Assembly (NCBI RefSeq): GCF_041346945.1
Contig: NZ_CP166850.1
Location: 2,728,001-2,792,000, forward strand
Reading direction: 5' to 3'
DNA length: 64,000 nucleotides
From: Amycolatopsis sp. cg9
GTDB taxonomy: Bacteria > Actinomycetota > Actinomycetes > Mycobacteriales > Pseudonocardiaceae
Shown here: piece after piece, positions 25,959-31,324 of the stretch
Numbering within the stretch: position 1 is the stretch's first letter
How the letters are laid out: every line of letters begins with the position of its first letter
Made by a program: the position numbers and the translations under genes
Notes under the pieces: model-generated
Seen by the model: the letters and a program-made list of their open reading frames with translations, nothing else
Database searches by the model: none
What the model was told of the DNA's origin: nothing

Positions 25959-27170
25959 CTACCCCGGTCCCGTGGTGCCGGGCTGGGGCCCGGGGGCGGC
26001 GGGCAGGTGATCGGCGATCCGGTCGGCGATCCGGTCGATCGACGCCAGCAACGCCTGCCGCGGCGCGGTCAGATCGAGCGAGTGGACGAAGAGTTCCACA
26101 CCGCCGTGCCGGACCTCGTAGATCGCGAGCGGCTCGGCACCCTTGGCGTACACCAGGTGCCCTTGGCGGAGGCCGAGAGCGGTGCAGTAGGCCAGCATCT
26201 GGAAGAGGTTGTCGTTGTTCCGCTTCCCCTTGTACTTGGCGTCGACGGCGGCCACCGGGCGCCCTCGGTGGTTCCACACCAGGTCGAGCTTGATCGTCAC
26301 CTGGTTGCCCGTGTCGAGGTGCGACCAATGAGGAGCGCTCGGCCAGCCCTCGACCCGGGAGCCGAGCGCGCCGGCGATCGACCTCGTCACGAAGTCTTCG
26401 AAGATGGTCTCCAGGTTGAACATGAAACCGTTGACGCTGAGCTCGCCGGGGGAGAGTTCGGGGGAACGGGCCTGCAGGATCACTTCGGCCAGCCCGAGCA
26501 CGGCGTGGTAGCGCTCGTTGAGGCGGTTGGCCGTCCACTTCGGCGGCTGCGCCCAGGGGCGCGGGAGCCGAACGCCTTCGAGTCTGCTCCGAAGCGCGTT
26601 CAGCCGTGCGGAGGACTCCTCGTCGACGCCGGGCACGGTCAGCATGTGCTCGATCGCAGCCAGGAGGATCCGGTTCTCGGCGATGTCCGGGGTGAAGTCG
26701 TCGTACTGGATCTCCATCGGCAACGGCTGGTCGAAGCGTCTCCGCAACTGGTCGGTGAGCCTGATCCGGCCACGCAGGGCAGTCGATGATTCGTCGCGTT
26801 GCCGATAACCGTGCAGCGGTCCGAGCCGCAAAGCCGCATCGGCTTGCCGCCACAGCATCTGGGCGATGGCCGGTACCACGCCCTCCGCGGTGCCGGTGGT
26901 GACCAGTTCGTCCAGCCAGCCGGCCGGGTTCCGGGCGTAGCCCGCCAAGAACAACAGCCGTGAGATCTTCATCTTGGGCATGACCCGGAACTCGAGATCG
27001 CCCACGCGGAAGGCGCCGACCCGGCCGCGCTTGCCCGCGACCGTCCACCAGCCGCTTTCCCTGCGCCGGGTCACGGTGACCAGCCCGGACGCCTCGAGCA
27101 GCGTCGCTTGGCGGTCGTCGAGCTCGACCGCCTCACCGCCACCGGTCTCGGTGAGGTCAATCGGTGACAT
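25959..27170 (-). CDS. McrC-like nuclease subunit of McrBC restriction system
   Basis: 403 residues. The N-terminal half is a McrC-type beta-rich domain that binds the McrB ring (GRVGAFRVGDLEFRVMPKM, ISRLLFLAGYA). The C-terminal half is a PD-(D/E)xK nuclease with IKLDLVWNHRGRPVAAVDAKYKGK: the motif residues are the Asp of KLDLV and the Asp-Ala-Lys of VDAKYK. It should cut DNA when the McrB NTPase translocates. The gene starts 14 bases inside the mcrB 3' end, so translation is coupled. The start ATG at 27170 fits the family. Together with mcrB and the DUF2075 gene it forms a probable type IV restriction operon. Confidence 0.88.
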   Translation of the reverse strand: MSPIDLTETGGGEAVELDDRQATLLEASGLVTVTRRRESGWWTVAGKRGRVGAFRVGDLEFRVMPKMKISRLLFLAGYARNPAGWLDELVTTGTAEGVVPAIAQMLWRQADAALRLGPLHGYRQRDESSTALRGRIRLTDQLRRRFDQPLPMEIQYDDFTPDIAENRILLAAIEHMLTVPGVDEESSARLNALRSRLEGVRLPRPWAQPPKWTANRLNERYHAVLGLAEVILQARSPELSPGELSVNGFMFNLETIFEDFVTRSIAGALGSRVEGWPSAPHWSHLDTGNQVTIKLDLVWNHRGRPVAAVDAKYKGKRNNDNLFQMLAYCTALGLRQGHLVYAKGAEPLAIYEVRHGGVELFVHSLDLTAPRQALLASIDRIADRIADHLPAAPGPQPGTTGPG

Positions 27171-29256
27171 CGTCCGGCAAATTCGCGCGAATGGCTGCCA
27201 GCCCGAAAGCGTCCAGGCTGTTTCCGCTGCCGTAGTGGTGCTCGGCGAGCAGCGGGAGGATCGATGCCTGCCACGCCCGATCGAGACCGTCCGGACGCCG
27301 GTAGATGCTTTCCCGCATCAGGAAAGAAGGCCCGACGGCGAGGTCGCGCTGGCGGATCATCCGGTTCAGCGCGTCGAGGACCTGGGGTGCGTCCCGGTTG
27401 AACTCGGCGCCTTCGATCCGGCCCAGCCAACGACCCAGCAAGCCGGCGGTCGGTGGCAGCGAGGGGTGCAACTCGGTGAAGACGAACCGCCGGCGGATCG
27501 CGGCGTCGACCTGGGCGATCGAGCGGTCGGTCGTGTTCATCGTGCCGATGACGAAGATGTTGGGGGGCAGCGTGAAGTCGGTCCGGTTCGAGTACAGCAG
27601 GCTGATCGCCTCGTCGCGGTACTCGAGCAGGAAGTACAGCTCGCCGAAGACCTTGGCCAGGTTCGCCCGGTTGATTTCGTCGATGATCAGGATGTGTGGT
27701 TCCGACGGGTTTTCGCGCGCCGCGTCGACGAGGTTCCGGAACGGGCCGCCGTGGAGGCCGAAGTCGACTTTCCCGTCCTCGCCCTGCTGTGGACGGAAGC
27801 CTTCGAAGAAGTCTTCGTACGTGTAGGAAGGGTGGAACTGCACCAGCTTGACCGCCGTGAGGTCGGCCAGCAGGTGCGCCAGTTTCTGCGCGAGGAAGGT
27901 CTTGCCGGTGCCCGGCGGCCCGTGGAAGATCAGTTGCTTGTACTCCCAGAGCAGGTCGGCCTGGCTCTGCAGCCACTCGTGGTCGACCAGGAGGCGTCCC
28001 GCCGCCTCCTCGGTGACGGTCGGGAAAGCCAGTTCGCGCTGCGGCTCGACAGCGGGGTCCTCGATCGTGACGCCCAGGTTCCGGAGCACCCGCTCGACGG
28101 TTCCCAGGTTGTCGGTCAGCTCGACGATGGCCGACTGGCTGCCGAGCTTCGCGCGGAGCTCCTGCGGCAGCTGGTCCACCGTGGGTGGCGCTTCGAGCGG
28201 GAACCACCGAGCGAAGCGGCGCAGGTTGGACCGGGTGCTCCCGGACAGGAAGCCGGCCGGGCCGTCGACGCGTCCGAAGTAGACGTGCTCGTGTTCGTCC
28301 CGCGTCAGGACGTAGTCGCCGACCTGGATCCGGTTGAGGAAGTCGTTGAACTCGGTGAAACGCTGCTTCTGCGCGTTGTAGGACAGGTGCTGGTAGTCCT
28401 GGTCGACCGCCTTCCGCAGGCGCTCCGCGGAAACGGGCAGCGCGAGCGGGCGGAGGTTCGACGGAAGCGATACGAAGCCTTCGTTCAGCCAACCGCCGAC
28501 GAGCTCTCGCTCTTCCGCCGAAGTTCCTTGGACCAACCAAGCCCGGCGCAGCGGCGCCGGCTCGGCCAGTGCGTCTTCGTCCAGCTGCTCCCGCAGCCAT
28601 CCGGCGGTGAGCCGGGCCCCGGGGGCGGCGTGCCCGAAGACGTCGAACTCCACCCCCTCGGCCTCCAAGCGCTTGCGCACGTCCATTCCGCGGTACCGGA
28701 CGGGCAGCATCCCTTCGGGCGGGAGCGAGCCGTCCACCTCGAGGATGCGATGGGTCCCCACCAACCCGGCCCGGGCCAGGAAGTGCCCGATGTGACGGGT
28801 GGACTGCCCGGTGATCTCCGAGAGGTCGTCGTAAGAACTCCAGAAGCCGGGGCTGACTTCGCCGACGAGCTTGATGATGGTGCGCTCCGAGCCACTGAGC
28901 TGCGCGACCGCTTCGTCGCGCTGCTTGCGCAACTCGCCGAGGCGGGTCTTCAGCTCCGCGAGCAGCTCGTCTTCGGAATGCGTCTCCAGCGCGATTTCGC
29001 CGGCGTCGGTCAAGGACCAGCCGCCGATCTTGCTCATCCAGCCGATCGTCGCCGCGTCGCCGGTGTGGTAGCCGAGGTGGACGCGCCAGCGGATTCGCCC
29101 TTCGCGGTCCTCTTCCCGCTCGTACGGTGACAGGCGATCGCCGACCCGCTCTTCGACCCGGTCGTACACCTGCCCCGGTTTGAGCGGGCCGTCGGCGTCC
29201 CGGAGGACTTCGAGGCTCGTCCGGAGGAGGGGCGCTATGCGTACGGTGTCGGCCAA
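27157..29256 (-). CDS. McrB-like AAA+ NTPase with Mrr_N and alkyltransferase-like domains
   Basis: 699 residues with an unusual front end. Residues 5-90 resemble the Mrr N-terminal winged helix (LKPGQVYDRVEER, GGWSLTDAGEIAL). Residues 92-120 are a coiled coil. Residues 130-205 match the MGMT/ATL fold: PGFWSSYDDLSEITG, IGHFLARAGLVGTHRIL, DGSLP and RKRLEAEGV; the reactive Cys of PCHRV is replaced (GTHRI), as in alkyltransferase-like proteins that bind but do not repair DNA. Residues 235-355 look like an EVE/PUA-type reader (VGDYVLTRD, VYFGRVDGP). Residues 420-680 are the McrB GTPase: Walker A GPPGTGKT (446-453), LIIDEINR (523-530) and MNTTDRS (573-579). It should recognise modified DNA and drive McrC. 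Confidence 0.85.
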   Translation of the reverse strand: MADTVRIAPLLRTSLEVLRDADGPLKPGQVYDRVEERVGDRLSPYEREEDREGRIRWRVHLGYHTGDAATIGWMSKIGGWSLTDAGEIALETHSEDELLAELKTRLGELRKQRDEAVAQLSGSERTIIKLVGEVSPGFWSSYDDLSEITGQSTRHIGHFLARAGLVGTHRILEVDGSLPPEGMLPVRYRGMDVRKRLEAEGVEFDVFGHAAPGARLTAGWLREQLDEDALAEPAPLRRAWLVQGTSAEERELVGGWLNEGFVSLPSNLRPLALPVSAERLRKAVDQDYQHLSYNAQKQRFTEFNDFLNRIQVGDYVLTRDEHEHVYFGRVDGPAGFLSGSTRSNLRRFARWFPLEAPPTVDQLPQELRAKLGSQSAIVELTDNLGTVERVLRNLGVTIEDPAVEPQRELAFPTVTEEAAGRLLVDHEWLQSQADLLWEYKQLIFHGPPGTGKTFLAQKLAHLLADLTAVKLVQFHPSYTYEDFFEGFRPQQGEDGKVDFGLHGGPFRNLVDAARENPSEPHILIIDEINRANLAKVFGELYFLLEYRDEAISLLYSNRTDFTLPPNIFVIGTMNTTDRSIAQVDAAIRRRFVFTELHPSLPPTAGLLGRWLGRIEGAEFNRDAPQVLDALNRMIRQRDLAVGPSFLMRESIYRRPDGLDRAWQASILPLLAEHHYGSGNSLDAFGLAAIRANLPDDVTD

Positions 29257-29292: not shown

Positions 29293-31170
29293 CTAGGCCG
29301 TCATCGCTTCGAGGAACTCCTGGGTCTCCGGGTCGGTCGAGTAGACGCACGTTCCGCGCATGCCGCGGGTCAGCAACACCTTGTACGTGTGGGCGATGAG
29401 CGTCTTGAAGTAGAGGTCGTTCGCCTTCGCCTTCTTGACCTCGTCGTCGTGCGAGCTTTCGGCGTCGGCCACCCATTCGTCGCGCCGGCGCACGAAGTCG
29501 GGGCCGAAGATGACTCCCGACCAGTCGTATTCGAAGCCCTGCGCCGTGTAGACGCAGCCGACCTGGCCGAACCCGCGCGGGTCGGTCGCCCAGAAGTGCG
29601 AGGGCGGGACGCCGGGCACCGCTTTCTCCGGGCGCGCGTTCCACGGACGTTCCCACCCGGCGATGGTGACGTCCTTGGCCAGTTCGAGGCGGTCGCCCGT
29701 GCGGACCGGTTCCTTGCTCCAAGGCCAGCAGAAGCCGGCCGAGACGCGGGCGGTGCCGCCGTACTCGTTTCGCTGCCGGAGCAGCCAGTTCTCGAGCGAC
29801 TCGGGCGTCGCCGCGGTGGCCACCACCAGGTTCTGGTCCTTCGGCGTGGCGATCTTGCTCCAGGGCACGGGATCGAGACCGCCGAGGCCGAGGAGCCGGG
29901 CGACCCAGGCGTCGAACCGGGGCGACCCGCCGCACCGGAACTGGCTTTCGAGCCGGACCACCTCGCACTCGTAGCCGTTCGCCGTCGCCGCGGCCTCGAT
30001 CTCACGTCGCGAACCCATTTCCCCCGGCCGGACGGTCTGCTTCTCGTCGAGGAGGAAGACCGGCACCTTGGCCGCGGTGATGAGTTCGTCGATCTGTCTG
30101 CCTGCTTGCTCACGCACGTGCTTGGGGGTGTAGCGCTTCACGCTGGTTTCGCGGATGCGGTGCGCCTCGTCGCAGATGAGGGCGTCGAGTTCCCGAGCCG
30201 GAGCCGTCATGTAGTCGTTGAAGTACCGGAAGCCGCCCATCTTGCCGCCGGACCGCGAACCGCTGACCTTCCGGAGCGTGTTCGTGAACGAGCGCGAGCC
30301 GGTGGCGTGTTCGACGAGGTACCCGCGGCTGCTCAGGTCCTTCTTCAGCTTGAGGGCGATCGCGCTCTTCCCCGAACCCGGCCCGCCGAGCACGACCACC
30401 GCCTTGGGGGTTCCGGTGGCACGCGCGTGGTGGACGGCCCGGAGGACCTCCTGGTAGGCCACCTCCTGTTCGTCCAGGAGGACGAGGCTCTGGTTGACGG
30501 TCCTCGTTTCGACGTCGATCAAGAAGCCGGGATTGTGGTGGAGGCCCAGGAACTCGTCGCCCGCTTGCCGGGTCCTCGCCTGATCGTCGCCCGCTTTGAA
30601 GAGCGAACGCAAGTGGTACTGCAAGTCGGTACGGCGTTCCGGGGAAAACACGGCGACCAGGTCGGAATGGTCGTACCGATCGAACCAGGTGGCGTTGTCG
30701 ATGCCGTACACGTACGCGAAGCCGTGCACGCTCCGCGGGTTTTCGGCGAGCTTGGGTGCCGAAGTGAGCAGGTACTCGCAGTACTGCCGCACCTGGGCGG
30801 CGGGATGCAGGACCAAGGCGTTCCCGACGCGGATGAGCTCGTCGGTCTCCTGCTCCACATCGTCCGGCGAGGCCAGCTTGACCAGCATGTAACTGGGTTC
30901 TTCGGTGTGCGGGTTGTGTCCGCAGAGCACCAGGTCGACATGCTTCGGGCTCTTGCCGAGTCGCGGCTCGACGATGACGTCCAGAGAGCCCAAGGAGGCG
31001 TCTACGAGATCCGACAAAAGGTTCGGAAGACCGTTCGTCCACCGCCCGGGCTCCGGTTCGCGACCGCCGGAATCGCCGACGGTGTCCGAACCCTCCGCCA
31101 ATATCCGCTGGAGCCTGCCTGTCTTGGCGTCGGCCAGCAGTTCCCGGGCGGTGCGTCGGATGAGCGGCAT
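29293..31170 (-). CDS. DUF2075 DNA/RNA helicase-like protein, first gene of mcr operon
   Basis: 625 residues from the ATG at 31170; an ATG four codons upstream is possible. Residues 45-100 may be a nuclease-like domain (DVIVEPRLGKSPKHVDLVLCG, in part, then YMLVKLAS), with the D and K of a PD-(D/E)xK fold but a poor third motif. Residues 230-625 are DUF2075, a superfamily 1 helicase core: Walker A LGGPGSGKS (262-269), ALICDEAHR, LLDEKQTVRPGE, RLESQFRCG and VYTAQGFEYDWSGVI. Such proteins occur in defence gene clusters and in Schlafen-related groups. The stop is 36 bases before mcrB on the same strand. Confidence 0.82.
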   Translation of the reverse strand: MPLIRRTARELLADAKTGRLQRILAEGSDTVGDSGGREPEPGRWTNGLPNLLSDLVDASLGSLDVIVEPRLGKSPKHVDLVLCGHNPHTEEPSYMLVKLASPDDVEQETDELIRVGNALVLHPAAQVRQYCEYLLTSAPKLAENPRSVHGFAYVYGIDNATWFDRYDHSDLVAVFSPERRTDLQYHLRSLFKAGDDQARTRQAGDEFLGLHHNPGFLIDVETRTVNQSLVLLDEQEVAYQEVLRAVHHARATGTPKAVVVLGGPGSGKSAIALKLKKDLSSRGYLVEHATGSRSFTNTLRKVSGSRSGGKMGGFRYFNDYMTAPARELDALICDEAHRIRETSVKRYTPKHVREQAGRQIDELITAAKVPVFLLDEKQTVRPGEMGSRREIEAAATANGYECEVVRLESQFRCGGSPRFDAWVARLLGLGGLDPVPWSKIATPKDQNLVVATAATPESLENWLLRQRNEYGGTARVSAGFCWPWSKEPVRTGDRLELAKDVTIAGWERPWNARPEKAVPGVPPSHFWATDPRGFGQVGCVYTAQGFEYDWSGVIFGPDFVRRRDEWVADAESSHDDEVKKAKANDLYFKTLIAHTYKVLLTRGMRGTCVYSTDPETQEFLEAMTA

Positions 31171-31324
31171 TGTCCCCCACATGTGCACGCGTGATCTCAT
31201 GCGCGGGTGGGGACAGCGACGGAGTTTCCTCCGGTGTCCGTCGGGCCGCATTCGGCGTCGATATTAGTGGATCAGTACCGGTTCCCGTGGGCGTGTTCCG
31301 CATCCGGATTTCGGTAGCGTCGGG

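Follow-up and report, generated by a model that had tools for sequence, protein, structure and literature searches.

How does an McrB protein come to carry a domain related to DNA alkylation repair, and what might such a domain read? The question is raised by an mcrB-like gene in Amycolatopsis sp. cg9, located in a window of 64,000 nucleotides (contig NZ_CP166850.1, positions 2,728,001 to 2,792,000), which is the whole stretch of DNA analyzed here. An earlier note, made from the sequence alone, had recognized an alkyltransferase-like (ATL) segment in the encoded protein, lacking the reactive cysteine of the alkylguanine-DNA alkyltransferases (AGTs) and accompanied by a winged helix and an EVE/PUA-like domain, and had proposed, on the model of ATL proteins, which flip and bind O6-alkylguanine, that the protein may sense bulky or alkyl-type base changes. 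The ATL-like segment and both of its neighbors were recovered in our analysis, while a transfer of the ATL mechanism was not supported. McrB and GmrSD enzymes share a distinct clade of this domain, and nearly all of its restriction-fused members have lost the arginine finger.

The genes of the locus make up an actinomycete restriction system of the McrBC type (Type IV, modification-dependent), with GTP-dependent cleavage of modified DNA as its predicted activity. The AAA+ domain of the window McrB matches McrB in the PDB (6hz4_A, E = 4e-42 in a phmmer search) and AAA_5 in Pfam (77.6 bits), and the Walker A, Walker B, and NxxD motifs of the McrB type are all present. The adjacent McrC contains the nuclease motif D...DAK (LDLVW...VDAKY). 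Ahead of the GTPase there is a composite reader, which consists of a winged helix, the ATL-fold domain, and an EVE/YTH-like segment that matches a PUA-like fold.

The window protein alone gave no direct proof of an ATL domain, and this line of evidence was abandoned: Pfam returned no PF01035 match, the window McrB was absent from the matches when its own genome was searched with PF01035 at E ≤ 10, and no ATL was found among the best 60 of 101 rows when the protein was compared to the PDB with phmmer. The case for the domain rests on the family, for which a profile and fold match to the AGT/ATL superfamily extends across the whole domain and beyond the helix-turn-helix (HTH); the match holds at this level, with the window sequence on its own falling below the Pfam threshold. 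The absence of a fold match, or a match to a generic winged helix only, had been named in advance as the outcome that would overturn the assignment, and neither was observed. Controls based on profiles, folds, and shuffled sequences led us to reject a chance or generic winged-helix match. Profile A1 excludes L031 and L039, which have very divergent segments, and L053, which has no usable frame, and profile A2 excludes L029, L030, L031, L039, and L053. The E-values of our own profile scans refer to a set database size of 1000.

The phylogeny was inferred from an alignment of 94 rows and 108 columns, some rows being identical and 29 representing classic ATL/AGT proteins, and 18 of its 85 inner branches are left open. 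The restriction-linked domains and some solo domains form a clade of their own with 65 rows (support 100/99), with the classic proteins on the other side. Members of this clade, here called W-type, are marked by a Trp at the position of V22 in Schizosaccharomyces pombe Atl1, which is present in all McrB (25/25), GmrSD (24/24), and solo domains (7/7) and in none of the 29 classic sequences. These and the following residue counts are based on 85 unique sequences, 56 of which are W-type, left after removing duplicates (chiefly the same species drawn from two collections), which reduced McrB from 33 to 25 and GmrSD from 25 to 24; a 62-aa fragment (L127) was excluded from both counts and tree. The McrB domains form a single clade (support 96/97), which suggests that the domain was captured by McrB once.

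The acceptor Cys is found in none of the 56 W-type domains, and the window protein has Thr168 at this place. The Trp that most ATLs have here, in the motif PWHRV, is absent as well; the residue is A in 23/24 GmrSD domains and one of A, S, G, and T in 23/25 McrB domains. The His of the PCHRV motif is kept in 17/25 McrB, 23/24 GmrSD, and 5/7 solo domains, and either His or Tyr occupies this position in 23/25 McrB and 24/24 GmrSD domains. The Arg that follows this His is present in all 85 sequences, and the pocket Glu in 84 of them (the remaining one has a gap), including all 56 W-type domains. The Tyr equivalent to Y25 in Atl1 corresponds to Tyr142 in the window protein, with Y or F in 18/25 McrB and Y in 23/24 GmrSD domains. 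The position equivalent to R69 in Atl1 is not an Arg in the window protein.

The arginine finger and the Tyr are conserved between AGT and ATL, and the finger drives base flipping, according to a review (PMC10779285). Since the placement of a two-residue gap at the finger depends on the alignment, we used the helix register to count the finger. By this count, an Arg is present in 25/29 classic sequences, 5/7 solo domains, 1/24 GmrSD domains, and 1/25 McrB domains. The sole McrB is that of the window itself (Arg154), one further McrB has a Lys, and P0003 and P0004, the nearest relatives of the window protein, have Gln and Asn. A looser count, which accepts Arg or Lys at any of the five positions preceding the core Val/Ile, gave 25/29 classic, 6/7 solo, 1/24 GmrSD, and 4/25 McrB sequences. 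With the finger missing from almost every restriction-fused member, the domain probably does not work by canonical flipping of O6-alkylguanine. In most solo relatives the domain still resembles a flipper, which is mostly not so for the restriction-fused ones. Among six short solo W-type proteins (L122, L123, L124, L125, L126, and L082), five have an Arg at the finger place. L122 (456 aa) was considered as an additional fused protein and rejected, as its N-terminal part seems to result from a GC-rich frame that was spuriously extended, which leaves only the ATL domain at the end.

The W-type domain is not confined to McrB. GmrSD domains are combined with a PF01035 match in L081, L087, and L089-L092, with the domain located towards the C-terminal side; the match is above the cut-off in L081 and L092 and below it in L087, L089, L090, and L091. 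In L089, L090, and L091, a RAMA domain is placed between GmrSD and the W-type domain, giving two candidate readers on one enzyme. The domain in L081 scores 116.7 bits with profile A1, within the span of the 11 Pseudonocardiaceae McrB loci (102.7-161.7 bits). L081-L085 were very likely found via the peptide pattern EAEGVEFD inside the domain, on which their E-values are conditional. Of 297 genomes assigned to the Pseudonocardiaceae on the basis of the named loci, 41 account for 43 matches at E ≤ 1e-9, and the 30 matches that were examined as loci comprise 11 McrB, 19 GmrSD, and none without either. A GmrSD model rebuilt without the ATL part recovered the same 19 loci, L147 only via a 206-aa frame piece. 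Across the phylum, 50 of 396 genomes match at E ≤ 1e-4, and the best 12 of these matches (E ≤ 2.1e-11) represent the window McrB, five GmrSD proteins from five genomes, five short or solo frames, and one 72-aa fragment. The 18 weaker phylum loci that were fetched are all classic ATL or AGT proteins, as their motif contains Cys or Trp. A helicase of the SLFN type near the solo domain in L117 was considered as an association and rejected, being only distantly similar to the helicase of the window.

A protein-database search with the L018 domain identified 31 proteins, which sort by their precomputed domains into 8 McrB, 18 GmrSD, and five of a third type. Two of the 18 GmrSD-type proteins are without GmrSD_N and two without a PF01035 call. 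The third type (P0011-P0015, with Microbispora and Nonomuraea among the named organisms) includes P0011 and P0012, which extend furthest N-terminally and contain a winged helix, matched by Mrr_N below the cut-off only, ahead of the ATL reader. After the reader, all five contain an invariant RRNNIAH motif and match HEPN_RiboL-PSP weakly (E = 0.05-0.1, below the cut-off); P0012-P0015 share 64-65% identity with P0011 and hence are not independent witnesses. We treat the HEPN-like nature of this region as a lead, not a finding, and these proteins possibly represent a new, predicted RNase-type effector. A search with residues 112-240 of P0001 returned three proteins only, the query included, and a search for short relatives with winged helix and ATL domain returned 14, among them some GmrSD pieces, one shortened McrB, and one shortened HEPN-like protein.

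Within McrB, the domain is an optional module. In L034, L049, and L060, the winged helix is directly joined to the EVE-like domain and the ATL segment is absent, which represents a natural deletion, and in L031 and L039 the segment is very divergent.

Compared to the McrBC system of Escherichia coli K-12, the window locus is alike in having an AAA+ GTPase with NxxD, an adjacent McrC with a PD-(D/E)xK-type motif, and an N-terminal specificity region, as described in the McrBC census (PMC11090510); it differs in that E. coli McrB has an ADAM/DUF3578 domain in place of the winged helix, ATL-fold, and EVE-like domains. The census lists Mrr_N, EVE, and DUF3578 among the McrB-associated domains. In the tree, the GmrSD proteins identified here have their ATL-fold domain in the W-type clade too, but their effector is the GmrSD nuclease. 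S. pombe Atl1 and the ATL of E. coli resemble the W-type domains in fold, HTH, and the lack of both an N-terminal AGT domain and an active Cys, whereas the W-type domains have no conserved finger, no Trp at the Cys place, an invariant Trp at the V22 place, and a fusion to restriction enzymes. VcaM4I is an EVE-HNH enzyme, from which the window protein differs in being an McrB with an additional ATL-fold reader.

The earlier note knew of no described system with this combination, which holds for McrB in the literature searched; the GmrSD fusion has been described. In the available part of a 2015 paper by Machnicka et al. (PMC4619093), several GmrSD homologs, most of them from Streptomyces, are reported to have PF01035 as a DNA-binding domain, and McrB is not mentioned there. 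No mention of alkyl or MGMT was found in the available main text of the McrBC census, none of the terms looked for in an EVE survey (PMC7641849), and no "alkyl" in the available part of a 2025 review (PMC12707154). In the literature searched, whose scope was papers without their supplements, no description of an McrB with an ATL domain was found, nor of the common W-type clade, the finger loss, or the third carrier in searches aimed mainly at the McrB fusion. The GmrSD fusion is thus known in outline, and the McrB fusion is visible in database records, six of which (P0005-P0010) already pair PF01035 with McrB domains.

From its sequence pattern, we read the ATL-fold domain as a putative exchangeable DNA-reader module of modification-dependent defense enzymes. 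Its HTH would dock in the minor groove, and the domain would help to recognize DNA with a foreign base modification without flipping by an arginine finger; its old base pocket mostly has a small residue in place of the alkyl-accepting Cys. That such a domain might read 2,6-diaminopurine in phage DNA is a speculation that forms no part of this reading. The EVE-like domain would be a second, possibly the main, reader of modified bases, and binding by the readers would license translocation driven by McrB, followed by cleavage by McrC, by which modified phage DNA might be restricted. A retained role in recognition is favored by the transfer of the domain between enzymes and by its pocket, in which Arg and Glu are conserved and His is in most cases. 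The idea of a restriction enzyme with a reader of changed bases is backed by the GmrSD and third-type fusions; the alkylguanine flipping attached to it is not. We give even chances to modified-base reading by the window McrB with a contribution from the ATL-fold domain. A bolder version, in which a repair-derived W-type domain serves as a portable sensor of phage modifications on at least three unrelated effectors (McrB/McrC, GmrSD, and HEPN-like) and reads without a finger via an enlarged dead pocket, a mode that would be new for AGT/ATL, is put forward as tentative and somewhat improbable.

Several points weigh against a reading role. The genomic context is thin, as no more than 2 of 28 loci share the helicase. 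Some members of the McrB branch have replaced even the flip-supporting Tyr (Y in 12, F in 6, and others in 7 of 25), and with the finger lost as well, base reading by the ATL-fold domain may have been lost too. The EVE-like domain could carry all of the reading, the ATL fold being a non-specific HTH that binds or bends DNA in the minor groove. We consider this rather unlikely, if plausible, as the conservation of the pocket Arg, Glu, and mostly His over 56 W-type domains is more than a mere clamp seems to need, and as Pfam reports no EVE-type family in the six GmrSD-ATL proteins, only GmrSD_N, GmrSD_C, PF01035, RAMA, and weak rows, even if about 170 further residues that follow the domain in L081 have no Pfam match and might form a second reader. 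Still less probable is a retained canonical function, in which the domain would flip O6-alkylguanine or bulky alkyl-type bases in phage or damaged DNA and bind them. The fold, the missing Cys, and the presence of both Tyr142 and Arg154 (in finger register) in the window protein agree with it, as does the JGI label "alkylated DNA nucleotide flippase Atl1" on 6 of the 18 GmrSD-type proteins; yet the finger is not conserved even in P0003 and P0004, the Trp and the R69 equivalent are absent, and the W-type clade stands apart from ATL/AGT with high support. That the segment has lost DNA binding altogether and only spaces or oligomerizes the readers would fit its absence from L034, L049, and L060 and its divergence in L031 and L039. 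We regard it as highly improbable, given the W, R, and E that are invariant over 56 domains on unrelated enzymes and the differing fusion position, in the middle of McrB and in the C-terminal part of GmrSD, which spacing does not explain.

ATLs hold bulky purine adducts, and an ATL-fold reader would for this reason add a different chemistry to the recognition of modified DNA. The readers vary among modification-dependent restriction enzymes, and PUA-type folds are found in many of those described so far, according to the 2025 review (PMC12707154). An ATL-fold reader raises the question of which modified base fits the W-type pocket, and whether McrBC, GmrSD, and the possible RNase respond to the same trigger. 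A further possible use of a W-type domain is as a new reagent for the affinity capture or detection of a DNA modification.

Table 1. Features of the McrBC-type locus and its upstream neighbor, in window coordinates.
Feature	Position	Strand	Extent	Remarks
mcrB-like gene	27157..29256	(-)	699 aa	start codon TTG at 29256
Winged helix, N-terminal, Mrr_N-like	28942..29256	(-)	residues 1-105	
W-type ATL/AGT-fold domain	28603..28905	(-)	residues 118-218	
Thr168 codon	28753..28755	(-)		position of AGT active-site Cys / ATL Trp; codon checked
Arg154 codon	28795..28797	(-)		helix register of arginine finger; codon checked; non-conserved
EVE/PUA/YTH-like domain	28072..28548	(-)	residues 237-395	
McrB AAA+ GTPase domain	27187..28014	(-)	residues 415-690	Walker A GPPGTGKT, Walker B IIDE, MNTTDRS
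mcrC	25959..27170	(-)	403 aa	PF10117, 155.5 bits; 14-base overlap with mcrB end
Schlafen-group-3-type helicase (PF09848)	29293..31251	(-)	652 aa	248.1 bits; upstream of mcrB, co-directional

The gene for McrC is located downstream of that for McrB in all 28 loci examined, three of which lack the ATL domain. The helicase gene is separated from mcrB by 36 bases in the window, and the two are perhaps in one operon. A similar helicase (about 56% identity) is present upstream of McrB in only two of the 28 loci, L009 and L015, and it is not a constant partner of McrB; both loci are named Amycolatopsis, as is L081, and the domain rows of these loci are identical to those from genomes marked as belonging to the genus of the window.

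Some McrB loci have further peculiarities. A 479-aa frame for an AAA_21/AAA_15 ATPase, AbiEii-like according to the Pfam description, is located between McrB and McrC in L014 (8123-9559) and L018 (8099-9535). In L019 (6013-7479), the McrC match is split into two pieces in different frames, and the gene may be broken or mis-sequenced. The McrB homolog in L029 contains, before the winged helix, an additional N-terminal stretch that resembles by eye a second EVE/PUA-type domain.
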